A stretch of DNA of 64,000 nucleotides from Sedimentibacter sp. SX930 (GTDB lineage: Bacteria; Bacillota; Bacilli; Lactobacillales; Aerococcaceae), in contig MUZD01000006.1 of the NCBI GenBank assembly GCA_002155105.1, forward strand, positions 1 to 64,000, in the 5' to 3' direction. The notes beneath the pieces are model-generated. The model had not been told where the DNA came from. It ran no database searches and saw only the letters and a list, made by a program, of their open reading frames with translations. The stretch's first letter is position 1; each line of letters begins with the position of its first letter. The position numbers were made by a program, and so were the translations under genes. Shown piece after piece: positions 23,976 through 55,296 of the stretch.

Positions 23976-24112
23976 CTGCGACACTTCTTTCCATTGCTTG
24001 AGATACCTCTATTATACGAACAAACGTTCTATAAAGCAAAGAAAAGCGCTTATCATCCTACACCTAAAAGGGAGGTGTTGACACAACGTGGTGGGCTTTC
24101 TCAGCACCAAGA

Positions 24113-24599: not shown

Positions 24600-25604
24600 T
24601 TAGCTGATCACACTCGTAGGTTGATCCTGAAGGTAATTGACCAGATTATCCAAGGCGATTTCGATGGCCCGCAAGTTTGTTTCCTGCGAACCCCATGCGA
24701 TATGCTGCGTGATTCTGACATTATCCAACTGGAACAGTTCGATATTTTTGGTGGGCGGCTCTTCGGAGAGGACATCCAAGCCTGCCGCATAGATTTTGCC
24801 TGATTTCAACGCTTCAGTCAACGCCAGCTCGTCGATGATCTCTCCGCGGGCCGTGTTCAAAAGGATCACCCCATGCTTCATCTGGTCGATAGCCGCACGA
24901 TCGATCAGATGATAGGTTTCGCTCGTCAAAGGTGTATTGATTGAAATGATATCCGATTCCTCCAGCAACTGCTCCAGAGAGACTTGATCAATGAACTGAT
25001 AAGCTAGCCCCTCCTTATAGGTGCGGCTGTAGCCAAGAACATGCATCCCCAAAGCGTCGGACTTGCGGGCCAACTGGAAACCGATATTCCCCAATCCGAT
25101 GATGCCGATTGTTTTGCCGCTGATTTCCAGTTGCCTCGTTGCGGGAATGAACCAACTACCGGGCTGCGGGTCCGTCCAATCCGTACTTTTCACGATATCG
25201 CTGTTCGTTTGAACATTTTTACAGATATCAAACAAAAGTCCTAGCGTGAATTCGGCGATCGCTTCCGCACCATAGATGGTATTCGTCACGGTCACACCAT
25301 ATTTTTGCGTCAAAGCTTTATCCATCTCGGCATAGCCATGCGATAAGGTAGCCAAGTAGCGAATATTGGGATGTCTGATAAACAATTCTTCATTGAAATT
25401 CTCTTCGGTGATGAAAAAGCCGATAACGATTTCGGCATCGCCGATGGCTCGGTCATACGACTCGAAGGAAGAATCATGGACGATTTCGACCCGATAACCG
25501 GTTATTTCCGGTATGTCGGATATCCCTTCCCACGCATTCAAAAGATTTTGGAAATTATAGTTCGATGAATCCGGACGCCAGTTTTGTAGTATGACCGCCT
25601 TCAT
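24600..25604 (-). CDS. D-2-hydroxyacid dehydrogenase (NAD-dependent)
   Basis: A 334-residue enzyme of the D-isomer-specific 2-hydroxyacid dehydrogenase family. The nucleotide-binding motif is TIGIIGLGNIGFQLA (about residues 163-177), the catalytic Arg is in LLNTARGEIID, the Glu in LDVLSEEPP, and the His in ITQHIAWGSQET. The sequence is nearer to glycerate/phosphonate-type dehydrogenases (NTIYGAEAIAEFTLGLLFD) than to D-lactate dehydrogenase. Substrate unknown: glyoxylate, hydroxypyruvate or an aldonate-derived acid would fit. It stands between the ula region and the rhamnosidase cluster with its own terminator. Confidence 0.87.
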   Translation of the reverse strand: MKAVILQNWRPDSSNYNFQNLLNAWEGISDIPEITGYRVEIVHDSSFESYDRAIGDAEIVIGFFITEENFNEELFIRHPNIRYLATLSHGYAEMDKALTQKYGVTVTNTIYGAEAIAEFTLGLLFDICKNVQTNSDIVKSTDWTDPQPGSWFIPATRQLEISGKTIGIIGLGNIGFQLARKSDALGMHVLGYSRTYKEGLAYQFIDQVSLEQLLEESDIISINTPLTSETYHLIDRAAIDQMKHGVILLNTARGEIIDELALTEALKSGKIYAAGLDVLSEEPPTKNIELFQLDNVRITQHIAWGSQETNLRAIEIALDNLVNYLQDQPTSVIS

Positions 25605-25926: not shown

Positions 25927-28791
25927 TCAGGCGAAAGACGCATTCATCCGCTCCAAGGCTTGCTCGCTGACAAAATTAGAAACAATCGGCAGGTCCTTGA
26001 ATTTTTCCATCGGCATATCCAGATACTGCAAGGCGATGTCGTTGTTGCGCATCATCGGTAACTGTTCAAAAATCACTTTCCGGGCTGGGGTGTATTCCAG
26101 TAATTCCCGGAAAGACAACTCGGTTGTGACTTCAGGTCGATAGTTCCGTGTCGGCATGTACGTGACACGGTATTCACCTGCTTTGACTGTGACTTTTGTG
26201 CTATCCTCGGCAGCCACTGCAGACTGAAGCCACTCCGTTTTCTGCGCTTCTTCAAGAGCCAGATCCGGCAGGGTGATGGTGGCGGTCGTCCCGAAAGGCA
26301 CGCGGAAGGCGAAATCCAATTGTCCGTCCGCCAATAGTTCCCACGCGCTTTCGATGCGACCGGATACCGATTGATAATACCCTTCTGCTTTGCCCAACTG
26401 CGCGCTTGGTTGCGGTGACAGGAAGAAATGTTTGTATCCTGGCTGATTGCTGTCCGCCTGGATGCCCAGGACGCAACGGTACAGCCATTCCACGATTGAT
26501 CCATAAGCATAGTGGTTCAGGGAGTTCATGTCCGTTCCGGAGATTTTTCCGTCCGGCAGAATCGAATTCCAGCGTTCCCAGATGGTGGTTGCGCCCATCT
26601 TCACCGCGAACAGCCAGCTCGGATAATCCTCATTCAGCAACAAACCATAAGCCAGTTCGTTCATGCCGTTCTTGCTCAAAGCCTCGGCAAAATACGGCGT
26701 CCCAACGAACCCGGTCTGCAGGTGGACGCCGCTGGAAATGACTTTATCATAGAAGTCTTTTGTCATCCGCTCTTTGAATGGTTCCGGGCAGAGATCGAAA
26801 TAATGGAAGAGGATGTAGGCAGTCTGGGTCGTCACCGCCAGACGCCCCGTCGCGGTCAGGTATTCGTTTTGGATGGCTTGTTTCACTTCCGCGGCCAATT
26901 TGGTGTACGCCAACGCATCATGCGCATTGCCCAAAACCTCAGCGGCCTGCGCCAGCAAGGAAGCCGAATGATAGTAGTATACGGATGCGACCAACGACGT
27001 ATCGGTTCCGCCCATAGGCGAGTGCGGATTGTCCCCGTCCAACGCCAACCAGTCGCCGAACTGGAAGCCGGTCGTCCAGAGGCGTTTGCCGCCGGATTTC
27101 ATATCCTCGCGAACGATATAGCCCACCCAATCCTTCATGGTTTGATATTGTTCCTTCAGCAATGAACGGTCCCCGTACTGCTCATAGAGTACCCAGGGAA
27201 TGACCGTCGCCGCATCCGACCAGGCCGCCGCTCCGGTACCGGTCACAAAACCGGCATCATCTTTTGGTTTGATCTGCGGAACCACAAATGGAACGGATCC
27301 ATTGAGCGCTTTTTGCTCAAGACGCAAATCGTGCATGAATTTTTTATAGAAAGCCGGTGTATACATATGGTAGCTGGCTGTCCGGGCAAAGATCTGGGCG
27401 TCACCAGTCCAGCCCATGCGCTCATCTCGTTGCGGACAATCCGTCGGCACATCCAGGAAGTTGCCTTTTTGCCCCCAAAGCGCATTCTTCAGCAATTGGT
27501 TCACATCCGGATTGGCTGTGATCATGCCGCTCGTCTCTTCCAATTCGCTCTGTAGCACGTAGCCTTTGAAGCCAAGATCCTGCTTCAGAAGATCGAAGCC
27601 AGTTATTTTTGCGTAACGGAAGCCGTAAAAAGTGAAGTACGGGCGCACTTCTGCCGGTTTCCCATTACTGATGTAAGTGAATTTTGCTTCCGCCGTGCGC
27701 AGATTATCGCGGTAAAAGTTGCCTTCCTGCAGCACTTCGCCGACCTCATAGGTGATGGTTGTTCCTTTTGGCACATCAGCGGTGAAAGTGATCCAGCCGG
27801 TCATGTTCTGCTTGAAATCCAGCACCTGTTCCCCTGCTGGAGTCAGGATCAGTTCCGGCACAAAGGCATCCACGATTTTGACTGGAACGCTCAACCGTGC
27901 CTGAAGTTTTTCGGTATCCGTATCGCTCAGTTGCATCGGTTCCCAGCAATCATCTGATTCTGATTCGCTGTATTTGTTCCAAGCGTCGATTTCCAGGTTC
28001 GCGTCATAGACTTCCCCGTCGTAGATGCTGCTGGAGACGAGCGGTCCTTCCGCCACTTCCCATGTATCATCACTTGCGATGGTTTCTTCCGTTCCGTCCT
28101 CATAAGTGACGAGGCATTCCGCAATCAGACGGAACTGGTCCCCGTACAGATTTTCGTATCCGCCGTCGAAACCGAAGCGGCCTTTGAACCAACCGTCCCC
28201 AAGCATCAAGCCTATTGCGTTTCCGCCTGCTTGAAGGGCTTTTGTCACATCGTAAGTCTGGTATTGCTGCCAAAAATCATAGGAATGGAAGCCGGGAGCC
28301 AAATATTCATCACCGATTTTTTCACCGTTCAGGTACAGTTCATAAATGCCCAGTCCTGTCGCATAAACGCGCGCTTTGCGGATAGGTTTTTCAGACAGTC
28401 GGAACAATTTCCGCACAATCGGCATCCGTTCCAGCTTTCGGGCAGGTTCGATCCATTTCCCGTTCCACTGTTCTTCTTCCTTCGCCGTTTCGAAGTACTG
28501 GATTTCGGAATACGACTCGTCTCCGCCAGCATTCTTCGCGATCACTTTCCAGAAGTAGCGCGTGCGCGGCTGCAGTTTGATTTCCGGCTGATAGCACAGC
28601 GGATCCAAATCGGCTTGCAACCCGCTGTCATGGATGACCTCTTCAAAGTTCTCATCCAGTGCAATGATGACCTGGGTCCCTTGCAGTTCTTCCTCAAACG
28701 GCGCGTCAATTATCCAAGACAATGTCACTGTGTCCATCAAAAAACCGATAGGATTCAGGATGTGATTGCTTTTCAGATTATATATATTCAT
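25927..28791 (-). CDS. GH78 alpha-L-rhamnosidase, paralog 1
   Basis: A 954-residue intracellular glycosidase (no signal peptide) that removes terminal alpha-L-rhamnose from glycosides. Domain order: N-terminal beta-sandwich domains (residues about 1-400, including ARVYATGLGIYELYLNGEKIGDEYLAPGFH), then the (alpha/alpha)6 barrel, then a C-terminal beta domain. The acidic catalytic motif DCPQRDERMGWTGD lies at about 451-464, the partner Glu in TTIWERWNS. The start at MNIYNLK has GGGGG 8 bases upstream. The gene lies 55 bp after the GPH transporter, separated by a hairpin. Rhamnose released here would enter the rhaBAD pathway at 52-57 kb. Confidence 0.92.
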   Translation of the reverse strand: MNIYNLKSNHILNPIGFLMDTVTLSWIIDAPFEEELQGTQVIIALDENFEEVIHDSGLQADLDPLCYQPEIKLQPRTRYFWKVIAKNAGGDESYSEIQYFETAKEEEQWNGKWIEPARKLERMPIVRKLFRLSEKPIRKARVYATGLGIYELYLNGEKIGDEYLAPGFHSYDFWQQYQTYDVTKALQAGGNAIGLMLGDGWFKGRFGFDGGYENLYGDQFRLIAECLVTYEDGTEETIASDDTWEVAEGPLVSSSIYDGEVYDANLEIDAWNKYSESESDDCWEPMQLSDTDTEKLQARLSVPVKIVDAFVPELILTPAGEQVLDFKQNMTGWITFTADVPKGTTITYEVGEVLQEGNFYRDNLRTAEAKFTYISNGKPAEVRPYFTFYGFRYAKITGFDLLKQDLGFKGYVLQSELEETSGMITANPDVNQLLKNALWGQKGNFLDVPTDCPQRDERMGWTGDAQIFARTASYHMYTPAFYKKFMHDLRLEQKALNGSVPFVVPQIKPKDDAGFVTGTGAAAWSDAATVIPWVLYEQYGDRSLLKEQYQTMKDWVGYIVREDMKSGGKRLWTTGFQFGDWLALDGDNPHSPMGGTDTSLVASVYYYHSASLLAQAAEVLGNAHDALAYTKLAAEVKQAIQNEYLTATGRLAVTTQTAYILFHYFDLCPEPFKERMTKDFYDKVISSGVHLQTGFVGTPYFAEALSKNGMNELAYGLLLNEDYPSWLFAVKMGATTIWERWNSILPDGKISGTDMNSLNHYAYGSIVEWLYRCVLGIQADSNQPGYKHFFLSPQPSAQLGKAEGYYQSVSGRIESAWELLADGQLDFAFRVPFGTTATITLPDLALEEAQKTEWLQSAVAAEDSTKVTVKAGEYRVTYMPTRNYRPEVTTELSFRELLEYTPARKVIFEQLPMMRNNDIALQYLDMPMEKFKDLPIVSNFVSEQALERMNASFA

Positions 28792-28816
28792 TGTGTGTGC
28801 CCCCATCTTAAAAAAT

Positions 28817-28846: not shown

Positions 28847-30223
28847 TTATCCGTTCACTCGTTTTGCTTTCAAGTCTTCCGCGATTTCAGGAAGTTTTTT
28901 GTCCAAGTCATAGAACAGAATCAACAAAATACATATTGCCGTGAAGGCGATCGGCAGATAGGCGAAAATAGCCTTGATCGCGAATAAAGCTTCAGCTGAT
29001 TGCGTTACGCCTTGCGAGACATAACCGCCAAGTCCCAAAACAACACCCAGAATCAGGCCGCCCACTCCGGATCCGACTTTTTCGGCAAAAGTTCCTGCCG
29101 AGAAAATCAAACCTTCGCTGCGGATGCCCGTTTTCCATTCGCCGTAATCGGCAACGTCACCCAACATAGCGAATCCAGCAACAGCTCCCGGAGCGATGCC
29201 CAGTCCGCGGATGACCAAACCGACCAAAATCATGGAGAAGTTTTCCGGGAACAGCGCGATGATCAGCAAACCTATCATCATTACGATGCCTCCGATCAAA
29301 GTGATCGTCTTTTTGCTGAATTTGCTCAGCAGAAACGGCATGAACACTGCTCCGGCCGCAATCGGCATAAAGGAAAGGATACCGATGACCGCCACTTTTG
29401 CGGGATCTCCCAAAATCCATTGGGCATAGAAAATGTTGATACCTCCCAAACCGGAGCTGATGAAACTTATTAGCATATACAGGATCATGATGACCCAGTA
29501 TTTATTCTGAAACAGTGCTTTGATGTTTGTTTTCAACGGTACCTTTTCGACAGCCACAGTAGACTCGATTACACGTTCCTTTGAATTTTTGAACAGTATC
29601 AGCAACAGCACTGTTGAGATCACGCCGAAAACAGCAGCCATCCACGTCCAAGCCTGTTTATCGCCACCGAAGAAGTTGACGACCGGCAGAACCACTGCAG
29701 TCACGCCCATTGCCCCCACGAATCCGGCCAATGTACGCGATGTCGAAAGGTTGCCGCGATCGACAGGATTTGAGGTCGTCGTACCGATCATTGCATTATA
29801 GGGAACCATCGTCGCCGTGTATACACCAGCCAAAGCAATCACATACGTTACGAAAGCATAGATGGCTTTGCCCGTCGATCCCAAGAAATCAGGGGAAGTG
29901 AATAAGAGTATCATTGCCAAAGCATAAGGGATTGCCATCCATAAAATCCAAGGTCTGGCCTTTCCGTGTTTCGAACGTGTCTTGTCGACGATCGCACCCA
30001 TCGCCAAATCGGAAGCGCCATCAAAAAGTCGCGCCCATAACAGGATGTTCCCGACGATGACTGCACTCAGACCGACCACATCGGTATAGTAGTAAGTGAT
30101 GAAGGAACTGGCCGTCGTAAGCATCAGATTGGCCGCCAGATTCCCGAAACCGAACGTCAGCTTCTCACTCAGCGGCAGCTTGTTTTCGTCAGCTTGATCC
30201 AAAATTCTTGTTTCAGTTGCCAT
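28847..30223 (-). CDS. GPH family sugar:cation symporter (MFS-like)
   Basis: A 458-residue permease with twelve hydrophobic segments, of the glycoside-pentoside-hexuronide:cation family (MelB/YicJ/LacS-like). The start KLPLSEKLTFGFGNLAANLM, the FDGASDLAMGAIVDKTRSKHGKARPW loop with its conserved aspartates, and GLGIAPGAVAGFAMLGDVADYGEWKTG are typical. It would import an oligosaccharide or glycoside with Na+ or H+. Lying between an AraC regulator and a GH78 gene, its likely substrate is a rhamnose-containing glycoside. AAAGGAG lies 9 bases before ATG. Confidence 0.9.
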   Translation of the reverse strand: MATETRILDQADENKLPLSEKLTFGFGNLAANLMLTTASSFITYYYTDVVGLSAVIVGNILLWARLFDGASDLAMGAIVDKTRSKHGKARPWILWMAIPYALAMILLFTSPDFLGSTGKAIYAFVTYVIALAGVYTATMVPYNAMIGTTTSNPVDRGNLSTSRTLAGFVGAMGVTAVVLPVVNFFGGDKQAWTWMAAVFGVISTVLLLILFKNSKERVIESTVAVEKVPLKTNIKALFQNKYWVIMILYMLISFISSGLGGINIFYAQWILGDPAKVAVIGILSFMPIAAGAVFMPFLLSKFSKKTITLIGGIVMMIGLLIIALFPENFSMILVGLVIRGLGIAPGAVAGFAMLGDVADYGEWKTGIRSEGLIFSAGTFAEKVGSGVGGLILGVVLGLGGYVSQGVTQSAEALFAIKAIFAYLPIAFTAICILLILFYDLDKKLPEIAEDLKAKRVNG

Positions 30224-30319: not shown

Positions 30320-31324
30320 CTACAGGTCCCTGTGCAAGGCTTCCTCGCGGATCTGACCTGGCGTCTTGCCATGCGTTTTTTTGAAGGACCTGAAAAAGTA
30401 GCTCGTGTCCAGATAGCCGATTTCCTCGGATATTTCCTCCATCGAATAATTTGAATAAAGCAGCAGATGGTGCGCGTGAAGCATGCGTTGGCGCTGCAGC
30501 AACTGTTTGAAAGTATCTCCCGTCTCTTTTTTGATCAGATTCCCCAAGTAATTCTTGTTGAAGCCCAATTGTTGCGCCAACATTTCCAAAGAAAGAGTGC
30601 GGTAATCCTTTTCGATGATGGCCAACGCTTCGGTGACGACCTGATTGTGGTGTCGTTGCTGTCCTTTCGTTTCTTCTTCAAATGTGCGCGCCAGTTCCAT
30701 GAACAGCAACGGCAGATAGAGGTGGATCACTTCGATATTCGGTTCAGTTCCGCCGTAGTATTCCTCCAAAATGTAATGCATGAAGGTCTGGACCTTTTGA
30801 TTTTCTCCCGTCCGGAAGACCAAAAACTGATCCTCCTCATGGGTGCGCTGGCTTGCCAGCACCAGGAACTCAGTCAATACTCCGCGTTTTCTCACGAGCT
30901 GCTGGAGGATTTTGGTATTGATCGTCTCCACTTTCAACAGGACATTGACGAGGATATCGTTCTCGCCCAGTGCCTGGAAAGAATGCGAGCTGCCCCGATC
31001 CAGCATGATGATGTCACCTTCATGGAGGATGATTTTTTCACCGCTCACTTCCTGGGTGCAGGAACCGGAATACATATAGTTCAATTCCAAAAACTGATGG
31101 TGGTGCAAGGGCATATCCGAATAGCGGTTGTGTTTACGGATATGGACGTCCCCTTTTTTGAAGAACATTTCCTCACTCAGAAGGAAATCGCCATTTAAGC
31201 GGAACTTATCCCCACTCAAAATCAGTTCATCGAGAATGTCCGGATCCGTCACATTGAACCCAGATTTCCGCTGCTCTTTTTCGACATTGGTCTCTTCCCT
31301 TAAAAAACGATCCAGTTCAAACAT
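30320..31324 (-). CDS. AraC family regulator with cupin-like sensor, paralog 1
   Basis: A 334-residue regulator with an N-terminal cupin-type ligand domain (HNRYSDMPLHHHQFLELNYMYSGSCTQ) and a C-terminal double helix-turn-helix of the AraC/XylS type (SLEMLAQQLGFNKNYLGNLI and ISEEIGYLDTSYFFRSFKKTHGKTPGQIR). It closely resembles the regulators at 33941-34939 and 56863-57819. The start MFELDRF follows GAGGAG by 7 bases. It lies directly upstream of the GPH transporter and GH78 gene and probably activates them in response to rhamnose or a rhamnoside. Confidence 0.88.
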   Translation of the reverse strand: MFELDRFLREETNVEKEQRKSGFNVTDPDILDELILSGDKFRLNGDFLLSEEMFFKKGDVHIRKHNRYSDMPLHHHQFLELNYMYSGSCTQEVSGEKIILHEGDIIMLDRGSSHSFQALGENDILVNVLLKVETINTKILQQLVRKRGVLTEFLVLASQRTHEEDQFLVFRTGENQKVQTFMHYILEEYYGGTEPNIEVIHLYLPLLFMELARTFEEETKGQQRHHNQVVTEALAIIEKDYRTLSLEMLAQQLGFNKNYLGNLIKKETGDTFKQLLQRQRMLHAHHLLLYSNYSMEEISEEIGYLDTSYFFRSFKKTHGKTPGQIREEALHRDL

Positions 31325-31408
31325 TTTGCCGCTCCTCTCTAACGTTATCTCACCCACCATTATACAGAAAAGCCCAACCGGACTCATCAGGTTGGGCTCT
31401 AAAAAAAT

Positions 31409-33088
31409 CTATCTGCGGGCATCCATCAGTCCGCAATAAGGATCGATCGGACTTACGCCTTTGAAATCACTCTTGCCGAGAAGTTTGGCGACTAGCGCTT
31501 CAATTATCATCTGATGATTATCGTAGGCATTGATGTAGGTCCTCACCATCGGCACATCCATCAGATGGTAGGGATTGCCCAGGCTCGCGAATACGGTAGG
31601 TACTTCATCGACGAACCAGGGGATATTGTTTCCCAGACCGAAGAAGGTATACCAGTTGATTCTTGTCGTTGTGGCGTTGCTGCGGTTTTCGACATTGGCC
31701 AGATAGAGGACAGCATCATATTTGGAACGGAACTGGGAAACGGATTCGAATCCGGTCGTGAAATCTTCTGGCTGATACAACGTCACCTGGAAGCCTTCCT
31801 TCTCCAAAAGCGGCAGCACCTTGGAAAAAATCTGGCGGTTCGATTCCTCATAAGGCCCCAGCAGTTGCAGCAACAGACGCGGTGTCGCGTCGGGTCGCAA
31901 CGGCAGGTTTGCGGCTGTATCCTTAACGAGCGTGATACCGTTGTCGGCTGCTTCCATAGCCCATTGAACGTGTTGTTCCGCCTGAAGGACAGCCAGTTCT
32001 TCCTTTGCCGGAACCAACAATGCATCCGCCTGTTTTTCAGGCAACTTCAATGCTGCTTTCATCGCCAGAATGCGGGTGACAGCTTCATCGATCCGTTCCA
32101 ACTTCAGGATGCCATTTTCAATCCCTTCCTTCATGAAGCGGATATCCTCCTCCAAGTCTTTGTTGAACAGGAATATATCGCACCCAGCTGCGATCGCTGT
32201 CGGAACGGCCAAACGCCGCTCCATCGCCGCGCAAAAACCGACCATCGGCGTCGCATCGCTTGTGATGACGCCATTGAATCCGAGTTCCTCGCGCAACAGT
32301 TCCTGCATGATGACCGGAGACAAGGTGGCCGGCAGAAAAGCATCTGCTTCTTCCTTCTGGACGGCAGGCAAAGCGATATGGCCGATCATTACGGAAAGCG
32401 CTCCGGCTTCAATGAGACCCGAATAGACTTTCCCATAGGTATTCCGCCATTCTTCGAGAGGTAGAGTGTTGACCGAAGTCACCAAGTGCTGATCGCGGAA
32501 GTCGATACCGTCCCCGGGGAAGTGTTTGATTGAAGCCGCCACACCGTTTTGCTGCACGCCTTCAACGTATCCTTGCGCATAGTTCAGGACGGTTTCGGGA
32601 TCGCTGCCGTACGTGCGCACGTTCGTGATCGGATTGTGGCAATTGTAGTCGATGTCCACGACCGGCGCGAAGGCCCAGTTCACCCCTACCGCTGAGCCTT
32701 CCTTGGCGCAGACTTCACCGAGATGGTGCCCAAATTCGGCATCCTGACCAGCCGCCAACAGCATCGGATTGCCTATGCGCGTACCGTCAACGGCGCTTCC
32801 TGTACCTCCCGCTTCCAAGTTGGCTGCAATCAGCAATGGAATCTTGGCTTGTTGTTGCAGATAACGTTGCGCTTGCTGCACTTCTTCACCTTTTCCGGGA
32901 CGGAACAGCAAGCCACCGATTTTTTTGTTCACGGCCAAGTCAAACAGCGCCTTTTCATCCGTGAACATGCCGATTGGGCAGAACAGCTGCCCCACTTTTT
33001 CATCCAACGTCAAGTTTGCCAAAGTCCGGTTTACCCATGCTATTTGTTCATCCTTCAGGTAAAAAGGATTCCCCTTCAAATCGATCAT
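31409..33088 (-). CDS. GH3 family enzyme, NagZ-type; possible beta-glycoside phosphorylase
   Basis: A 559-residue cytoplasmic GH3 protein. The nucleophile is Asp278 in GVITSDATPM. KHFPGDGIDFRDQH (188-201) is the NagZ loop, and the Asp199-x-His201 pair aligns with the Asp/His acid-base dyad of NagZ-type enzymes, not with the distant Glu of classical beta-glucosidases. GH3 enzymes with this dyad have been reported to be phosphorylases. The usual second His of KHFPGHG is Asp here. A C-terminal alpha/beta domain (about 370-559) is present. The start codon overlaps the stop of the beta-phosphoglucomutase gene (ATGA), so the pair is translated together. The substrate is inferred to be a beta-glucoside; a GlcNAc-like substrate is the alternative. 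Confidence 0.85.
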   Translation of the reverse strand: MIDLKGNPFYLKDEQIAWVNRTLANLTLDEKVGQLFCPIGMFTDEKALFDLAVNKKIGGLLFRPGKGEEVQQAQRYLQQQAKIPLLIAANLEAGGTGSAVDGTRIGNPMLLAAGQDAEFGHHLGEVCAKEGSAVGVNWAFAPVVDIDYNCHNPITNVRTYGSDPETVLNYAQGYVEGVQQNGVAASIKHFPGDGIDFRDQHLVTSVNTLPLEEWRNTYGKVYSGLIEAGALSVMIGHIALPAVQKEEADAFLPATLSPVIMQELLREELGFNGVITSDATPMVGFCAAMERRLAVPTAIAAGCDIFLFNKDLEEDIRFMKEGIENGILKLERIDEAVTRILAMKAALKLPEKQADALLVPAKEELAVLQAEQHVQWAMEAADNGITLVKDTAANLPLRPDATPRLLLQLLGPYEESNRQIFSKVLPLLEKEGFQVTLYQPEDFTTGFESVSQFRSKYDAVLYLANVENRSNATTTRINWYTFFGLGNNIPWFVDEVPTVFASLGNPYHLMDVPMVRTYINAYDNHQMIIEALVAKLLGKSDFKGVSPIDPYCGLMDARR

Positions 33089-33768
33089 CCTTCAACACGC
33101 TCCTTCATCGTCACTTCGCGTACAATTTCTTCCAGGTTTAATTCTTTTGTAGCCGTCACTTCAATGTCGGGGAGCCACTCACCAAAAGCTGGGATGCCGA
33201 TGGCGACGGCGGGCATGCCCGCCCGTTTGATCCCTTCGATGCCAGCCAATGAGTCTTCGAAGCCGATGCATGCGTGTGTTTCCAGACCCAAAGCCTGAGC
33301 CGCCCTTTCGAAGATCTCCGGATGCGGCTTGTTCTGTTTCAGAGATTCCGGATCGACGACGGCATTGAACGAAGCCGACAGACCCAGTCTTTCCAGAATG
33401 AGCGGCGCATTTTTACTGGCGGAGGCGATTGCCATGTGGTAGCCTGCATGTTTTGCTTCTTCCAAAAGCTCCGAGATACCCGGCAGGATGTCCGCTGCCG
33501 TAATCTCCGCGATCAACTCCAGGTAATGCGCATTTTTTTCTTTCAACAGCTGTTCTTTTTCTTCCGCATTAAGGAGAAGGCTCGGCTTTTCAGCCAAAAT
33601 CAGTTCCAAGGATTCAGTCCTGCTGATGCCTTTGAGTCGTTCGTTCCATTCGCGGTCGATCACGATCCCCAATCGATCCGCTATCCTTTTCCACGCCAAG
33701 TAGTGTCGTTCCGCTGTATCGGTGATGACACCGTCCAAATCAAATACCAATCCTTTTATTTCGCTCAT
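33085..33768 (-). CDS. pgmB: Beta-phosphoglucomutase
   Basis: A 227-residue HAD-superfamily mutase that converts beta-D-glucose 1-phosphate to glucose 6-phosphate. VFDLDGVITDTAE carries nucleophile Asp10 and acid/base Asp12. ERLKGISRTESLELIL is the substrate-specificity cap motif, IASASKNAPLILERL and KPHPEIFE follow, and GFEDSLAGIEGIKRAG binds Mg2+. The match to the Lactococcus beta-PGM layout is close. Beta-PGM is normally paired with an enzyme that makes beta-glucose 1-phosphate; here the only overlapping partner is the GH3 gene. It is the first gene of this two-gene unit. Confidence 0.9.
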   Translation of the reverse strand: MSEIKGLVFDLDGVITDTAERHYLAWKRIADRLGIVIDREWNERLKGISRTESLELILAEKPSLLLNAEEKEQLLKEKNAHYLELIAEITAADILPGISELLEEAKHAGYHMAIASASKNAPLILERLGLSASFNAVVDPESLKQNKPHPEIFERAAQALGLETHACIGFEDSLAGIEGIKRAGMPAVAIGIPAFGEWLPDIEVTATKELNLEEIVREVTMKERVEG

Positions 33769-33922: not shown

Positions 33923-33952
33923 AAAAAAGCTATGAATTTCTCATAGCTTTTT
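33923..33952 (-). terminator. Terminator of the second AraC gene
   Basis: AAAGCTATGA/TCATAGCTTT stem, overlapping the stop codon, followed by TTTGC on the minus strand. Confidence 0.82.
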
Positions 33953-34939
33953 GCTTCGGTGCATTTTTTTCCGCAACTGATTGGGTGTCTCTCCGTACTC
34001 ATTCTTGAATATTTTGAAGAAATAACTCGGACTGGTGATGCCAAGCTCTGCAACGATTTTTTCGATCGGTTTGTCGGTCCCGATCAGCAGATCATAGGCC
34101 TTTTGCAGTCTTCGTTTCGTGACCCATTCTTTGAACGTCAGACCCGTTTCTTGCTTCAGCAGATTGCTGAGATAATTTTTGTTGAAATTCAACTTTTTCC
34201 CCAGGCCTTCCAGTGTGATGCTGGCATATTCACTGTCGATGATCTCCAGGGCATCGATCACCTTCTTGTTGAAAGGGAGTTCCCCGGCTTCGCTGGACAT
34301 GATATCCTCCAGTTCAGCCAGGATAACCAGTAACCAAAGTTCCACTTTCTCGAATTTAGGCGATTCTCCTCCAAAATAATCGGCAAGCAAATAGGACAAG
34401 CACGTGCTGATCCGTTGATTATCGGTGGTGCTGAAATGCAGATATGGTCGATGACGGCTATTTTTTTTGCCCACGGTCAACAAAAAATCAGTGATCAAAC
34501 TGTGCCGCTGGGCCATCCTTTGGAGCACCTTCGTGTTGATGGCATCCGACTTGATCAATATGTTGATCAGGATGTCCTGCTCACCGAGCTTGTCGATGGA
34601 ATGGCCGGTCCCAGGATCGATCATCAGCAGATCGCCTTGCTTCATCTGGATTTTTTCCTGGCCGATCCACTGGGTGCAATGCCCTTGCAGAAGATAATTC
34701 AGCTCGAGGAATTCATGCGAGTGGGTGGGCATGGGAAAGTAGCGGGCATGCCGGTTCATGAAGATTTGATGGTCCACAAAAAAATCCTCATCAGACAAAT
34801 GGAAATCAAGCAGATAGCCTGCTGTTGCCGCTTGATTTTGGAATTTGGCGGTTATTTGCTCAGCCGTCATGGTTTTCATTTCAGCTTCAAGCGGCGTTTC
34901 TTTCAGCAAGGTTTCCAGAACATCTTGTGGTGCGGACAT
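33941..34939 (-). CDS. AraC family regulator with cupin-like sensor, paralog 2
   Basis: A 332-residue regulator with the same architecture as its paralogs: a cupin-like domain with NRHARYFPMPTHSHEFLELNYLLQGHCTQ, then two C-terminal helix-turn-helix units (ITLEGLGKKLNFNKNYLSNLL; IVAELGITSPSYFFKIFKNEYGETPNQLR). GAGGAG lies 8 bases before MSAPQD. It lies directly downstream of the second GH78 gene on the same strand, with a terminator between. Likely targets are the neighbouring GH78 gene or the pgmB-GH3 pair. Confidence 0.87.
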   Translation of the reverse strand: MSAPQDVLETLLKETPLEAEMKTMTAEQITAKFQNQAATAGYLLDFHLSDEDFFVDHQIFMNRHARYFPMPTHSHEFLELNYLLQGHCTQWIGQEKIQMKQGDLLMIDPGTGHSIDKLGEQDILINILIKSDAINTKVLQRMAQRHSLITDFLLTVGKKNSRHRPYLHFSTTDNQRISTCLSYLLADYFGGESPKFEKVELWLLVILAELEDIMSSEAGELPFNKKVIDALEIIDSEYASITLEGLGKKLNFNKNYLSNLLKQETGLTFKEWVTKRRLQKAYDLLIGTDKPIEKIVAELGITSPSYFFKIFKNEYGETPNQLRKKMHRSKKL

Positions 34940-34986
34940 ATTTTTCACTCCTCTGTTCTTCATGCCCATTTTATCAACTCCATCCA

Positions 34987-35018
34987 AAAAAGCAAAGGCT
35001 TTTGGGCCTTTGCTTTTT
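34987..35018 (-). terminator. Terminator of the second GH78 gene
   Basis: AAAAAGCAAAGGC pairs with GCCTTTGCTTTTT around a 6-base loop, followed by TGG on the minus strand. Confidence 0.85.
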
Positions 35019-35021
35019 GTG

Positions 35022-37769
35022 TCAGATACTATTCAATTTTTTCATTATATCTTCGGCCTCGGCGACCATCTCTGCAGTAATGCCAGTGTAGAATAATTTT
35101 GACAGCTGATTCAATGACAGGTTCAGCTGTTCCTCATCGGCAAACGCCCTGAATCCTCTGACGCGTTCGTGAATGCCGAGGATTTCTTCGAACAGCTCCT
35201 TGTTTTCGTTCTTGATGATCGAAAGGCGTGTATCCGAATCATAAAGCACGCTCAGATCTTTTGTCGGTTTGTAGGTGTACTCGTAAATGCCTGACGCCAC
35301 TTTGATTGGCTCCTGATTGGCGTACGGCAACACGATCTCAGCCTGCGCGCCAAAAGGCACTTCGAAATAGCAGCTCAGTTCGCCATTTTTAAGTATCTTC
35401 CATTCACTGACGAATTTGCCGGCCGCCGACTGATAGCTTCCGCGGGCATATCCCAGTTTTACATTTGGATTGGGCGCTAATCTCGCGGTACGGAATCCAG
35501 CTTCCAACGGTTGGATACCCACCACGTATTTATAGACAAACTCGATGACGGATCCGTAACTGTAGTGGTTCAGGGAATTCATGCCTGCAGGATTCATGGT
35601 GCCATCCGGCATTACACTGTTCCAGCGCTCCCAGATTGTCGTCGCGCCAAGATTCACCGCATACAACCAGCCCGGGAAGCCTTCATTGAGAAAGAACTCA
35701 TAGGCCAGATCGACCATGCCATTCTCCGACAGCACTTGGCAAAAAATCGGAGTCCCCACGAAGCCGGATTTTATTTTGTACAGATCTTTTTTCAAACGGG
35801 TTTTCAGCTGCTCGATGACCACTTCGCGCTCACGGAATAGTTTGAACTTCAAAGCAATGATGTACCCCGATTGGGTGTCGATGGACAGGCGTCCGGATGG
35901 GGTCACATACTCGAACAAGATCCGCTCACGGACTTTTTCGCTGAGTCCGCGGTAATAGATCGCGTCAGACTCATTCCCCATCAAAGCTGCGACTTCCGCG
36001 ACGATGCACAGACTTTCATAATAATAAGCTGAAGCAATAAACGTATCGTCAGTGCTCCCTTTGAATGATGAAGGAGTCGCGCCATCCAATGCCAGCCAAT
36101 CCCCGAACTGGAACCCACCGGCATTGAGCTCCGTTTTCGATCCCTGCGCTTTTTCGATTTGAGAGCCTGTCCAATCCACCCAATCTTTCATCAGCGGGTA
36201 GTACTGCCCGACTTCTTCCTTGTTCCCATAAGCAGTCCATAAAGCCTTAGGTATGAACGTCGCGGCATCTCCCCAGACAGCTGCGCCACCTTGCGTAGCC
36301 ATCGCCGGCATATAATTCGGGATGCTTCCCGACAGTTTTTCCTGTTCCGTACGCATGTCGATCAGATATTTGCGATAAAATGCCCGCGTGTCCATATGAT
36401 AACTTGCTGTCGGAGCAAATACTTGCGCGTCCCCAGTCCAGCCCAAACGCTCAGCCCTTTGCGGACAATCGGTAGGCATATCGAGGAAGTTTGATTTGAG
36501 CCCCCAAAGCGAGTTTGAATACAATTGATTCACTTTAGCATTGCCTGTTTCGATGATGCCCGTTCGCGTCATATCGGAATAGATGGCCAACCCGCGTACG
36601 GCTATCTCCTTGTCTGCCGGCCAGCCCGTCACACGCACATAGCGGAAACCAAAGTAAGTGAAATGCGGGTGAACCGTTTCGGCTATTCCATTGGAAATGT
36701 AACGGAAGCCTGCTGTGGCAGTGCCGTAATTCTCATTATAAAAATTGCCTTGCTGCAGTATTTCCCCGAATTCAAAGTGCACCTCGGTCCCTGCCGGAAA
36801 ATCGGCATCAAACGCAAGCCAACCGGCAAAGTTCTGCCCGAAATCAAGGACCGTCTCACCATTCGGGGTTTGGATGACCTCCTGCAAAGGAACTACTTCA
36901 TGAATGCTCAGTCCCGGGCTCACGCGTTCTTTCAATTTTTCTTTTGAAATGCCAACGATCGCTATCTCATCACTGCGCCCCGATTTATCAAGTGTCCGGT
37001 CGATCGTTTCGCCATCGTAGATGCCGCTGTTCGTAATATCGCTCAGCGTCGCTTTCCAACTGAGATCCGTCACGATCCGCTCTTTCGTCCCGTTTTCGTA
37101 GCGCACCACCAATTCGGCGATTGTCGCAAATTTGTCTCCGAAATAAGCATTCTCGCCGCTCAGGCCGAATCTCCCTTTGTACCAGCCGTTGCCCAACATG
37201 ATCGCCAGCTGATTGCTTTGTTTTAATTGATCGGTGACATCATACGTCTGGATTTGGATGAAAGCATCGTAGTTGTTGACGAACGGCGCCAGAACATCAT
37301 TTCCGATTTTCTTTCCGTTCAAACTCGCTTCATAAAGCCCAACCCCACTGATATATAAACGGGCTTCCTTCACTTGCTGGCTCAGTTCGAAATCCTTGAA
37401 CAGAATCGGATGGATCTCTTCCTGCACCTTCGGCCCGATCCATTCGGCATCCCATGCTTCATCCATTTTCCCAGTCTCAAAAAAGCTTGTCGATTCAGCC
37501 ACTTCACCATCTTCAGCAGTTACACGAATCTGCACATAATAGCGTGTTCTGGGCTTCAACTGAAGCGCCAACGTTTCCCCTGAACTGTCCAGATCACCAT
37601 TTTTTCCAAGCACAATCTCTTTGAATTCGTGATCGGCAGCTACCTGGAGGCTTGCCTCTTTTTGCATTTTCCCTAACCCGTTGTCGACCGCCCAACTGAC
37701 GATCAAGGGCTCAAAATGATACCCGATAGGCTCAACAATGCCGTTAAATTTAATATCCGTAATTTCCAT
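35022..37769 (-). CDS. GH78 alpha-L-rhamnosidase, paralog 2
   Basis: A 915-residue cytoplasmic GH78 enzyme, alignable with the 25927-28791 paralog but clearly divergent. N-terminal beta domains (ARLYISGVGLYEASLNGKKIGNDVLAPF) precede the catalytic barrel with DCPQRAERLGWTGD and TTIWERWNS, then GMNSLNHYSYGSVIEFVY and a C-terminal beta domain. One acidic residue of the first motif (Asp in paralog 1) is Ala here, so activity or linkage preference may differ. A strong cre site lies just upstream (37793-37807), so glucose should repress it. Confidence 0.9.
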   Translation of the reverse strand: MEITDIKFNGIVEPIGYHFEPLIVSWAVDNGLGKMQKEASLQVAADHEFKEIVLGKNGDLDSSGETLALQLKPRTRYYVQIRVTAEDGEVAESTSFFETGKMDEAWDAEWIGPKVQEEIHPILFKDFELSQQVKEARLYISGVGLYEASLNGKKIGNDVLAPFVNNYDAFIQIQTYDVTDQLKQSNQLAIMLGNGWYKGRFGLSGENAYFGDKFATIAELVVRYENGTKERIVTDLSWKATLSDITNSGIYDGETIDRTLDKSGRSDEIAIVGISKEKLKERVSPGLSIHEVVPLQEVIQTPNGETVLDFGQNFAGWLAFDADFPAGTEVHFEFGEILQQGNFYNENYGTATAGFRYISNGIAETVHPHFTYFGFRYVRVTGWPADKEIAVRGLAIYSDMTRTGIIETGNAKVNQLYSNSLWGLKSNFLDMPTDCPQRAERLGWTGDAQVFAPTASYHMDTRAFYRKYLIDMRTEQEKLSGSIPNYMPAMATQGGAAVWGDAATFIPKALWTAYGNKEEVGQYYPLMKDWVDWTGSQIEKAQGSKTELNAGGFQFGDWLALDGATPSSFKGSTDDTFIASAYYYESLCIVAEVAALMGNESDAIYYRGLSEKVRERILFEYVTPSGRLSIDTQSGYIIALKFKLFREREVVIEQLKTRLKKDLYKIKSGFVGTPIFCQVLSENGMVDLAYEFFLNEGFPGWLYAVNLGATTIWERWNSVMPDGTMNPAGMNSLNHYSYGSVIEFVYKYVVGIQPLEAGFRTARLAPNPNVKLGYARGSYQSAAGKFVSEWKILKNGELSCYFEVPFGAQAEIVLPYANQEPIKVASGIYEYTYKPTKDLSVLYDSDTRLSIIKNENKELFEEILGIHERVRGFRAFADEEQLNLSLNQLSKLFYTGITAEMVAEAEDIMKKLNSI

Positions 37770-38507: not shown

Positions 38508-38552
38508 AAGACCGCACCGAAATGGATAACAAATCCATTTTGGTGCGGTCTT
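38508..38552. terminator. Bidirectional terminator between convergent genes
   Basis: AAGACCGCACC..AATGGAT pairs with ATCCATT..GGTGCGGTCTT. The same AAGACCGCACC sequence recurs in the terminator at 39235-39274. Confidence 0.8.
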
Positions 38553-52017: not shown

Positions 52018-53175
52018 TTATTGGAACAATTTTTTGTACATCGCAATCGTTTCTTCCAATGTCGGAGTGAATGGGTTTCCTGGAGCGCAGGCATCGATCA
52101 TGGCATTTTTGGACAGGTAGTCGTAATCGAATTCCTCTTCCTTGATGCCCAGCTCATTCAATGATGTTGGAATGCCAACAACTTTGGACAAACGTTTGAT
52201 TTCTTCGACCGTGTAATCTGCGCAGGCTTGATCGGATACGTCAGCCGTCACTGCCAAGCCTAAAGCCTTCGCTACTTTGCGGAAACGTTCAGGCGCAAAT
52301 TTAGCATTTTCGGCTTCTACGATTGGCAACAGCATCGCACAGCAGACGCCGTGCGGCAAGTGGTAGACGGCACCCAATTGGTGAGCCATCGAATGCACAT
52401 AACCCAGGCCGGCATTGTTGAAGGCCATTCCGCCCAAGAAAATGGCATTGACCATTTTATCGCGCGCATCCAAGTCCGTTCCGTTTTCGACAGCTTTCGG
52501 CAAGTATTCACTGATCAATTCGATCGCTCCGGCTGCCAATACTTCCGTCACAGCGTATGCGCCAGGTGTTACCATCGATTCGATCGCATGTGTCAACGCG
52601 TCCATCCCGGTTGCGGCTGTCAATGATTTCGGCATCGTCAACATCAATTCAGGATCGTTCACGGAAATCTTCGCCAAGCTGTTTTTGTCGACCATAACCA
52701 TCTTCACTTTGCGGTCTTCATCGGTGATGACGTAGTTGATCGTGATTTCAGCGGATGTTCCGGCAGTCGTGTTGATCGCCACAACCGGCAAGCCGGCTTT
52801 AGCGGATTTGTGCAAACCTTCGTAGTCCTGCGGTTTGCCGCCGTTCGTCAGGATGATGCTGATGGCGCTCGCTGCATCCTGCGGAGAGCCGCCGCCGAAG
52901 GAAATGATGAAGTCGCAATTTTCAGCCTGGGCCATAGCCACGCCTTCATTCACGTTTTTGCAGGTCGGGTTCGGATCGACATCCGCATAGACCACATAGT
53001 CGATTGCCGCATTGTCCAACTCTGCCAAAACAACGTCGATCATTTCGCTTTTGGCCAAAAAGTTATCCGTTACGAACAAAGCTTTCTTATAGCCAAGTTC
53101 CTTCACATTGCTGCCCAATTCCTTGATGCAGCCTATCCCGATAAGGTTTATTGCCGGTACATAAAAAGTTGCCAT
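52018..53175 (-). CDS. fucO: Lactaldehyde reductase / 1,2-propanediol oxidoreductase
   Basis: A 385-residue iron-containing group III alcohol dehydrogenase that reduces L-lactaldehyde, the C3 product of rhamnulose-1-phosphate cleavage, to 1,2-propanediol. FIISFGGGSPQDAASAI (NAD site), the metal ligands in SMAHQLGAVYHLPHGVCCAM and DALTHAIESMV are typical. The ATG start was preferred; a TTG two codons earlier is closer to AAGGGG. It lies 25 bp after rhaD and is the last gene of the rhaB-rhaA-rhaD-fucO operon. Confidence 0.92.
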   Translation of the reverse strand: MATFYVPAINLIGIGCIKELGSNVKELGYKKALFVTDNFLAKSEMIDVVLAELDNAAIDYVVYADVDPNPTCKNVNEGVAMAQAENCDFIISFGGGSPQDAASAISIILTNGGKPQDYEGLHKSAKAGLPVVAINTTAGTSAEITINYVITDEDRKVKMVMVDKNSLAKISVNDPELMLTMPKSLTAATGMDALTHAIESMVTPGAYAVTEVLAAGAIELISEYLPKAVENGTDLDARDKMVNAIFLGGMAFNNAGLGYVHSMAHQLGAVYHLPHGVCCAMLLPIVEAENAKFAPERFRKVAKALGLAVTADVSDQACADYTVEEIKRLSKVVGIPTSLNELGIKEEEFDYDYLSKNAMIDACAPGNPFTPTLEETIAMYKKLFQ

Positions 53176-53200
53176 TTTCAATTATCCCCTTTTGATAAAA

Positions 53201-54019
53201 TTAGATGTTCAAGTAGCCCGCTTTTGGAGTTACAGAGAAACGTTTGCCCAGATTGCTCAGTTGTTCATCAGTGATTTCCTGTCTGATGCCGCCTTGTGAT
53301 TGAACAAGTGTGTAGACAGTCGCTGATTTTTCAGCCGTTTCGACCAAACCGAAACACTCTTCCAAATCTTTTCCGGCTGCGTACAAACCGTGGTGCGGCC
53401 ATACGATTAGGCGGTATTCCTTCATCTTTTCAGCAGTCGCTTCGCCGATTTCGTTCGTTCCAGGCATCAACCAAGGCAGGATGCCCACGCCTTCAGGGAA
53501 CACGACCAATGATTCGGTACACATTTTCCAAAGGATGCGCGTGAAGCTTCTTTCATCCAACTCGCAAGAGAAGGACATCGCCAACAGGTTGGTGGCGTGG
53601 CAGTGGTAAACGACACGGTTTTCAGGATCGACCGACAAGCGCGAAATGTGCGACATCAAGTGAGCAGGCAATTCGCTGGTAGGAGCCGCTCCATTTTCAT
53701 AGCCCCATAACAGGTCTACACTGTTGCCTTCCGCAGTTACTTTCAGGATACCCAAGACATCAGCCGGGTCATGGATGACGTTTTTGAAGAATTTCCCTGT
53801 TCCTGTGACCAGGAAATATTTCCCAGCCAATGCTTTGCCGTCGAAAGCGATCGGAATGTTGCGTTTCACTTCGTTCAGATCCAGATATTCCGTGATTTCC
53901 TCTTCTTTCAGCAGGTAGGACAAGTTGCCGCTGTTTCTTTCGTGCCAGCCAAATTTGTACATGACGTCCGTCAACAGCATAACTTCTTTGATGAATGGTG
54001 CTTCTAAAATGTTTTTCAT
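53201..54019 (-). CDS. rhaD: Rhamnulose-1-phosphate aldolase
   Basis: A 272-residue class II zinc aldolase that splits L-rhamnulose 1-phosphate into dihydroxyacetone phosphate and L-lactaldehyde. Zinc ligands lie in VVYHCHATNLLA (two His) and IVWPHHGLYAAG. The N-terminal YKFGWHERNSGNLSY is family-specific. It is in line with rhaA (16 bp upstream) and fucO (25 bp downstream). Confidence 0.95.
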   Translation of the reverse strand: MKNILEAPFIKEVMLLTDVMYKFGWHERNSGNLSYLLKEEEITEYLDLNEVKRNIPIAFDGKALAGKYFLVTGTGKFFKNVIHDPADVLGILKVTAEGNSVDLLWGYENGAAPTSELPAHLMSHISRLSVDPENRVVYHCHATNLLAMSFSCELDERSFTRILWKMCTESLVVFPEGVGILPWLMPGTNEIGEATAEKMKEYRLIVWPHHGLYAAGKDLEECFGLVETAEKSATVYTLVQSQGGIRQEITDEQLSNLGKRFSVTPKAGYLNI

Positions 54020-54035
54020 TTTTATGATTTCCCCC

Positions 54036-55292
54036 TTATTTGCGTTCCGTAAGAATTTTTTGTTCGTAGTCTTTTACTTCAGTCAGCCATTCCGTACCAG
54101 CTGGTACATTTTGTTGTTGGCAATAGAATTCCCAGACAGCGCCGAATGGATAAGATTTCATTTCTTCCGTAACAGCCAAACGGGTTGTGAAATCGCCTGT
54201 GCTTTCGGCATCCTTCAATGTTTCGATTGGGCTCAACATACCCAACAACAAGGATTTCAACGTGCTGCGCGCGCCGATGACCATGGCTGCCACACGGTTA
54301 ATCGTTGCATCGAAGAAGTCCATACCGATGAAAGTTTTGTCCAACAAGTCGTTGCGCACCAATGTTTCGCCGATGCGGGTAGTCGCTTCATCCAAGATGA
54401 CCACGTGATCGGAATCCCAACGGATCGGACGGCTCACGTGCAGCATCAAGCCTTTACCGAAAGGCAGGAAGGCCGTGAATTTATCGGATACATCCTCGGT
54501 TGGGTGGAAATGTCCGGCATCGATTGTCCACAGGATGTCCCTTGTCAAAGCGTAGGACAGGTAGAAATCATTGGAACCGGTCGTGAAGCTTTCTGCACCG
54601 ATACCGAAGAGTTTGCCTTCGACCGCGTCCAACATGTGTGCATCATCGAATTTTTCTTCCAAGCATTGATCCAACGCATCACGCAGGCGTACCCGCGGCG
54701 ACATTTTGTCGATCGGGTTGTCTTTGTAGCCATCCGGGATCCAGATGTTGTTCACGCAAGTTTGGTTCAGTTCTTCGCCGAAGTATGCGGCCACTTTGCG
54801 GCTGCGTTTCACGTGTTCGATCCAGAACGCTTGTGTTTCAGGGTCATTGCTGGACAATGTGCCGTCTGTCGATTTCGGATGGGAGAAGCAAGTAGGGTTA
54901 AAATCCAGTCCAAGACCTTTTTCTTTTGCCCATTGCACCCATTTTTCGTAGTGCTTCGGTTCGATCTGATCCAAGTCGATTTTTTCGTCTGTATCCACAT
55001 AGATGGCATGCAGATTCACTTTATGGTTGCCGGGGATCAGGCTCAAGGCTTTATCCAAATCGGCACGCAGTTGCGCTGGTGTCGTAGCTTTGCCCGGGTA
55101 GTTGCCGCTGACGGAAATTCCGCCGGTCAAGGCTTGATCAGGGAACATGAATCCCAATACGTCGTCCCCTTGCCAGCATTGCAAGGAAACCTTGATTTGG
55201 CTTAATTTTTCAAGTACTGCATCCGTATCCACACCGATGGCGGCGTATTTTTGTTTCGCTAAAGTGTATGCTTCTTCAATAGGTTTTGTCAT
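54036..55292 (-). CDS. rhaA: L-rhamnose isomerase
   Basis: A 418-residue metal-dependent aldose-ketose isomerase, L-rhamnose to L-rhamnulose. VSLQCWQGDDVLGF near the N-terminus, DFNPTCFSHPK, NLHAIYVDTDEKIDLDQIEP and TIDAGHFHPTEDVSDK (metal and proton-transfer residues) are diagnostic. The start MTKPIEEAY follows GGAG by 9 bases. It lies only 4 bp after the rhaB stop, so the two are translationally linked. Confidence 0.96.
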   Translation of the reverse strand: MTKPIEEAYTLAKQKYAAIGVDTDAVLEKLSQIKVSLQCWQGDDVLGFMFPDQALTGGISVSGNYPGKATTPAQLRADLDKALSLIPGNHKVNLHAIYVDTDEKIDLDQIEPKHYEKWVQWAKEKGLGLDFNPTCFSHPKSTDGTLSSNDPETQAFWIEHVKRSRKVAAYFGEELNQTCVNNIWIPDGYKDNPIDKMSPRVRLRDALDQCLEEKFDDAHMLDAVEGKLFGIGAESFTTGSNDFYLSYALTRDILWTIDAGHFHPTEDVSDKFTAFLPFGKGLMLHVSRPIRWDSDHVVILDEATTRIGETLVRNDLLDKTFIGMDFFDATINRVAAMVIGARSTLKSLLLGMLSPIETLKDAESTGDFTTRLAVTEEMKSYPFGAVWEFYCQQQNVPAGTEWLTEVKDYEQKILTERK

Positions 55293-55296
55293 TTGT

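Follow-up and report, generated by a model that had tools for sequence, protein, structure and literature searches.

A putative GH3 beta-glucoside phosphorylase paired with beta-phosphoglucomutase beside rhamnosidase genes in Sedimentibacter sp. SX930

Maltose and trehalose phosphorylases of glycoside hydrolase family 65 (GH65) make beta-glucose 1-phosphate (beta-Glc1P), which beta-phosphoglucomutase (beta-PGM) then makes into glucose 6-phosphate (Glc6P). The GH65 enzymes act with inversion on alpha-glucosides, whereas retention on a beta-glucoside would yield the same product. Family GH3 holds enzymes of the latter kind. BglP, also called BglX, is a retaining beta-glucoside phosphorylase that came from activity-based metagenomics (Macdonald et al. 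2018, as cited in PMC8950772), and a 2022 review counts it as one of two characterized GH3 phosphorylases and explains the His/Asp dyad of these enzymes as allowing the approach of anionic phosphate (PMC8950772). Here we describe a GH3 gene that overlaps a beta-PGM gene (pgmB) within the first 64,000 nucleotides of contig MUZD01000006.1 of Sedimentibacter sp. SX930, a stretch that we call the window. With a probability of roughly 0.77, its product is a cytoplasmic retaining beta-glucoside phosphorylase that is paired with beta-PGM and used in the catabolism of rhamnosyl-glucosides, as judged from homology, predicted fold, active-site residues and the recurrence of the gene team.

Among entries of the Protein Data Bank (PDB), the best sequence match of the window GH3 is 5vqd, "Beta-glucoside phosphorylase BglX" (E 6.8e-153), with the runner-up at 3.9e-47. 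The BLASTP alignment with 5vqd is full-length (window GH3 residues 7-558) at 45.8% identity, and the score for the GH3 N-terminal domain PF00933 is 231.8 bits (cut-off 27). The AlphaFold2 model (pLDDT 87.1) resembles 5vqe with a TM score of 0.92. Homology to the characterized phosphorylase BglX/BglP therefore spans the full length of the window GH3. Crystal structures of that enzyme have been deposited under its own name (5VQD and 5VQE), so the novelty claimed in the original prediction does not hold for a beta-glucoside GH3 phosphorylase as such. What sets the window protein apart is its setting among genes for beta-PGM, GH78 enzymes and a GPH symporter, whereas BglX was compared as a protein alone. 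Cellulomonas fimi Nag3, a GH3 phosphorylase of N-acetylglucosamine (GlcNAc) and glucose, could be compared by description; it shares the His acid/base and retaining phosphorolysis, but its preferred substrate, according to the same review, is GlcNAc-anhydroMurNAc (PMC8950772).

The active-site residues originally proposed for the window GH3 are all in place: the nucleophile is Asp278 and the acid/base dyad consists of Asp199 and His201, with Gln200 between them (RDQH). The Asp nucleophile, the Asp-x-His dyad and the intervening Gln place the protein, together with its homology and fold, in the BglX/BglP type. In all 95 proteins of the tree clade to which both the window GH3 and BglX belong (clade B, see below), Asp199, His201, Asp278, Lys188, His189 and Arg158 are unchanged, and position 200 is Gln in 94 of them and in BglX, and Ser in a NagZ-like outgroup. 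An active-site Gln reportedly sets phosphate recognition, and its exchange for Ser is said to give GlcNAc specificity; Gln200 is presumably that residue. A search of the GH3 alignment for specificity positions under strict thresholds returned a single, uninformative column. Homology and gene company make a phosphorylase step by the window GH3 very probable.

The companion protein matches the beta-PGM equivalog TIGR01990 with 250.4 bits (cut-off 189.4). Asp10 and Asp12 (the HAD Asp pair) and the beta-PGM residues Thr18, His22 and Arg50 are invariant in an alignment of 50 pgmB proteins, and 49 of 50 such proteins (that of the window and 49 linked to GH3 genes) match TIGR01990 at E<=1e-50. Positions 33085-33088 belong both to the start of the GH3 gene and to the end of pgmB, which bears out the 4 bp overlap first noted for this pair.

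A genome search for GH3-pgmB adjacency, also suggested at the outset, found the pair in many genera. Of 570 confirmed stretches in contigs scanned at one genome per species, the best 80, judged by resemblance to the GH3 of the window, serve here as scan loci. Beta-PGM lies within 5 kb of GH3 in 49 of the 80, on the same strand as GH3 in all 49, and is present in 35 of the 53 loci that have at least 5.5 kb on each side. The chance expectation is only about 0.3%, because 25 beta-PGM genes above the cut-off were found in 94.6 Mb from 20 genomes (hand-picked from those behind the 80 loci and mostly isolates). The position of pgmB varies among loci, being before GH3, after GH3 or past GH78. Therefore the association has outlived rearrangement, which argues for selection and against shared ancestry as its sole cause. 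Hosts of the pair include Lactobacillales, Lachnospiraceae, Oscillospiraceae, Bacillaceae, Paenibacillaceae, one Vibrio contig and one bin labelled Muribaculaceae. GH78 accompanies the pair in many of these hosts, not all; it lies within 5 kb of GH3 in 35 of the 80 loci, and in 24 together with beta-PGM. The gammaproteobacterial example (L130, Vibrio sp. HA2012) has GH78 nearby, and its GH3 is a tree neighbor of BglX with support 85.

A tree from a quick IQ-TREE search under LG+G4, built on 127 GH3 proteins together with BglX and an outgroup, separated two groups with different company. To the window and the 80 scan hits this analysis added 40 regions chosen from GH3 hits, 6 of them from the source genome and the other 34 from its relatives; the second batch was largely picked to sample what became clade A. 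This clade comprises 31 proteins (SH-aLRT 99) and stands apart from the 95 of clade B, whose deepest split is poorly supported (33); L062 falls outside both. The clade-B copy of L138 is identical to that of L137 and was dropped as a duplicate, and the GH3 genes of L145, L146 and L148, which are outside the tree, were put in clade A by score and are included in its counts. Division of the clades by an NPYHL motif misassigned members and was rejected in favor of the tree.

Beta-PGM lies within 5 kb of 46 of the 67 clade-B genes with full flanks. When only full-flank genes in loci with a single clade are counted, the figures are 40 of 61 clade-B genes versus 1 of 19 clade-A genes (p=2.5e-6, uncorrected for ancestry), and the clade-A count includes a "PGM" match in L060 that, at 25-29% identity, is probably not a beta-PGM. 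Whole genomes of relatives show a similar division: a beta-PGM is present in 16 of 16 with a tree-placed clade-B GH3 versus 5 of 15 in which clade A is the sole clade, a count that excludes G007, G041, G042 and G093 (GH3 matches placed in neither clade) and takes G009 and G059 as clade A only, each having one further unplaced GH3 match.

We infer phosphorolysis, the substrate, the cytoplasmic site and the direction of flux in the window as follows. A GPH symporter would import a rhamnosyl-glucoside, either rutinose-like or a plant rhamnoglucoside, from which GH78 enzymes would strip alpha-L-rhamnose, and the freed rhamnose would be catabolized through RhaA, RhaB and RhaD. The GH3 would attack the exposed beta-glucoside via Asp278, and phosphate would then release beta-Glc1P; the use of His201 with Asp199 as acid/base, in place of a carboxylate, may be what admits phosphate to the active site. 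Beta-PGM would turn this product into Glc6P, sparing the ATP of glucokinase. Intracellular use of an imported compound is favored because inspection of N-termini by eye gave no evident signal peptide in the GH3, pgmB or GH78 proteins, and because rhaABD lie in the same window, about 14-20 kb away. The window rhaA is the sole match to the RhaA family PF06134 in a search of the whole source genome. A rhamnoglucoside is a moderately probable substrate, given homology and gene company. The central proposal of the original prediction, a retaining beta-glucoside phosphorylase that feeds beta-PGM beside GH78 enzymes, thus gains support from BglX/BglP homology and from the recurring association.

Several observations weigh against this reading. 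Among 100 relatives, 13 of 78 BglX-type GH3s have a beta-PGM no more than 6 kb away, as do 7 of the 73 other GH3s (Fisher p=0.24). In this count BglX-type means E<=1e-60 with the clades pooled, the other GH3s are those among the matches listed, one entry of the latter that was also on the BglX-type list was removed beforehand, and the Fisher tests ignore phylogeny. Within 1 kb the corresponding figures are 10 of 78 and 0 of 73. One of the seven other GH3s near beta-PGM sits, in the source genome, in a cluster (C6) with a BglX-type GH3 and GH78. The tree offers a reason for the weak pooled signal, namely that two GH3 clades keep different company. Even when loci that also hold clade A are set aside, 21 of the 61 clade-B genes with full flanks have no beta-PGM nearby, and the 80 loci were ranked by likeness to the window GH3, with tests on them ignoring shared ancestry. 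The family is also patchy; it was found in 1 of 148 other genomes of a phylum-wide draw, which makes that draw useless for partner counts. In Gottfriedia endophytica (L115), the clade-B GH3 has D-H-H, not D-Q-H, and the genome has no beta-PGM match at E<=1e-30.

Beta-PGM can work for other phosphorylases, and the source genome carries two further beta-PGM genes above the cut-off. The GH3 might then be an ordinary retaining beta-glucosidase that keeps the His dyad and prefers water, with pgmB serving the product of some other phosphorylase. Indeed, the Asp-His dyad taken alone is weak evidence of phosphorylase activity, because RmNag3 and an enzyme of Herbaspirillum, both GH3 N-acetylglucosaminidases (a class that uses a His acid/base), are reported not to act as phosphorylases (PMC6987092), a further point that counts against our interpretation. 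The mechanism is better backed here than by the bare motif, however, because the closest characterized enzyme to the window GH3 is the phosphorylase BglX/BglP. This kinship, the retained Gln and pgmB, which overlaps the GH3 gene here and accompanies relatives of that GH3 in 49 of the 80 scan loci, render the hydrolase improbable. A role in wall recycling as a NagZ-like N-acetylglucosaminidase or phosphorylase is more improbable still. The original label "NagZ-type" holds for the dyad only, because the protein scores 124.9 bits against the NagZ equivalog NF003740, below the cut-off of 207, and carries KHFPGDG and DQH where the sole NagZ-like GH3 in the set has KHFPGHG and DSH. Bacillus subtilis NagZ (YbbD; 3BMX, 4GYJ) is a muropeptide hydrolase that shares the Asp-His dyad and, over the full model, the GH3 fold, with TM scores of up to 0.80 among the matches listed, but it has D-S-H and, when structurally aligned, shows about 25% identity. 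The neighbors scanned were of GH78, beta-PGM, GPH, AraC and dehydrogenase families, which also speaks against wall recycling.

A phosphorylase of BglX type could instead act on a substrate without rhamnose, such as cellobiose, gentiobiose or aryl glucosides, with the GH78 genes forming a separate module. BglP is said to act on cellulose and cello-oligosaccharides in the review (PMC8950772), and 45 of the 80 scan loci, some of them cut by contig ends, have no GH78 within 5 kb, which is also a point against rhamnosyl-glucoside catabolism. We nevertheless regard such a substrate as rather unlikely, given the GH78 frequencies above, the same-strand run in the window and the proximity of rhaABD.

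The company of clade A is of another kind. Its members include another GH3 of the source genome (G000:C1:195702; L047:15694-17436), which starts about 50 bp after a gene (L047:14793-15641) whose HAD product carries the motif DSDGCAMDTM. Upstream of the latter gene, in a group that spans L047:10627-17436, lie genes for 2-keto-3-deoxy-6-phosphogluconate (KDPG) aldolase, glucuronate isomerase, mannonate dehydratase and mannonate oxidoreductase. In full-flank, single-clade loci, UxaC, UxuA or UxuB genes occur within 5 kb in 10 of 19 clade-A cases versus 0 of 61 for clade B, and the DSDGCAMDTM HAD protein likewise in 10 of 19 versus 0 of 61. This company holds for about half of clade A and is missing from the other half. 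Among the 100 relatives, 20 of 30 HAD copies have a BglX-type GH3 at most 200 bp away, and 27 of 28 HAD-bearing genomes also carry such a GH3. Clade-A GH3, HAD and uronate genes (UxaC, UxuA, UxuB and Eda in most) were seen together in L047, L143-L146, L149, L152, L154, L157-L159, L103 and L105.

Eleven loci hold both clades (L073, L081, L087, L089, L094, L103, L105, L118, L137, L138 and L140). Several have the order GH78-GH3B-bPGM-GH3A-HAD, in which the suffix gives the clade and bPGM is beta-PGM, and rumen and gut Clostridia bins are among the hosts. Six of these loci (L073, L089, L094, L103, L105 and L118) clearly have the HAD gene beside the clade-A GH3. L137 and L138 have a distant version 1 kb away, L081 has a piece cut by the contig end, and HAD was undetected in L087 and, close to a contig end, in L140. 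None of 18 HAD proteins came near being named in an NCBIfam scan (best E 2.4e-06), and the predicted model resembles phosphoglycolate phosphatases and beta-PGM at a query TM of only about 0.4-0.5. Of the 31 clade-A proteins, 28 have His at the position equivalent to Pro281 of the window GH3.

These associations suggest that clade A is a beta-uronide phosphorylase branch with its own sugar-1-phosphate phosphatase; alternatively, the clade-A GH3 may simply be a hydrolase that has nothing to do with the adjacent HAD protein. More broadly, and tentatively enough that we hold it to be somewhat doubtful, the DxH GH3s might be a family of retaining phosphorylases each paired with a HAD enzyme for a sugar 1-phosphate. 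Clade B would supply beta-Glc1P to beta-PGM, and clade A would convert a beta-glucuronide to a beta-uronate 1-phosphate, which the HAD protein would dephosphorylate before UxaC, UxuB and UxuA act.

The minus-strand run in the window proceeds in the order GH78, AraC, pgmB, GH3, AraC, GPH symporter, GH78 and 2-hydroxyacid dehydrogenase (Table 1). Both GH78 proteins have the PF17389 six-hairpin domain. It is uncertain whether the D-2-hydroxyacid dehydrogenase belongs to the pathway; the alcohol dehydrogenase next to rhaD is, by its family match, probably a lactaldehyde reductase.

Table 1. Features of the window discussed in the text
Feature	Position	Strand	Basis and remarks
D-2-hydroxyacid dehydrogenase family protein	24600..25604	minus	PF02826; 3' end of same-strand run
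GH78 alpha-L-rhamnosidase (a)	25927..28806	minus	PF17389, PF08531, PF05592
GPH-family sugar:cation symporter, presumed importer	28847..30223	minus	TIGR00792, 356.4 bits (cut-off 231.35)
AraC-family regulator	30320..31387	minus	PF12833, PF02311; about 20 bp downstream of GH3
GH3, predicted retaining beta-glucoside phosphorylase, BglX/BglP type	31409..33088	minus	559 aa; PF00933, 5vqd match, AlphaFold2 model, residues
pgmB, beta-phosphoglucomutase	33085..33768	minus	227 aa; TIGR01990; nearest PDB entries are beta-phosphoglucomutases
AraC-family regulator	33941..34987	minus	PF12833; upstream of pgmB
GH78 alpha-L-rhamnosidase (b)	35022..37769	minus	PF17389 and others
Iron-containing alcohol dehydrogenase	52018..53181	minus	TIGR02638, 453.5 bits (below equivalog cut-off 523.15)
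rhaD, rhamnulose-1-phosphate aldolase	53201..54019	minus	TIGR02624, 442.3 bits (cut-off 400.95)
rhaA, L-rhamnose isomerase	54036..55319	minus	TIGR01748
rhaB, rhamnulokinase	55297..56745	minus	TIGR02627, 594.1 bits (cut-off 527.95)

A scan of the window against Rfam gave no match at the gathering score, and a promoter scan gave 16 sites with 15.3 expected by chance. Terminator-like sites numbered 23 with 15.8 expected, and both sets of sites were set aside as evidence; past the GH78 end of the cluster, a 20-pair hairpin with a T-rich tail (38508-38552, plus strand) is terminator-like. A gene for a TnpB-family RNA-guided endonuclease occupies 22956-23984 (NF040570, 177.9 bits, cut-off 100). The C6 cluster of the source genome (G000:C6, L044:3050-18426) carries genes for beta-PGM, GH2, a GH43-like protein, a large GH3, a GPH-type symporter that scores slightly below its model cut-off, AraC and GH78, together with a second BglX-type GH3 of about 48% identity to that of the window.

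The window thus places an enzyme of known class in gene company for which we found no description among the literature matches listed. Titles and the openings of abstracts in that set hold neither a GH3-pgmB nor a GH3-HAD-uronate pathway, and clade A points to a uronide branch likewise undescribed there; Franceus et al. (2021), on the evolution of GH3 phosphorylases, may cover part of this ground. GH3 beta-glucoside phosphorylases have so far been biochemical rarities, and their gene company offers them a role in rhamnoglucoside catabolism in which ATP would be saved. It also yields a proposed annotation rule, D-Q-H plus pgmB, that gives a testable prediction of substrate and product. If the pairing of each clade with its own HAD enzyme is correct, the tandem operons with both GH3 genes would dismantle plant glycosides that bear rhamnose, glucose and glucuronate. 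The finding may bear on how gut and plant bacteria dismantle flavonoid and saponin glycosides.

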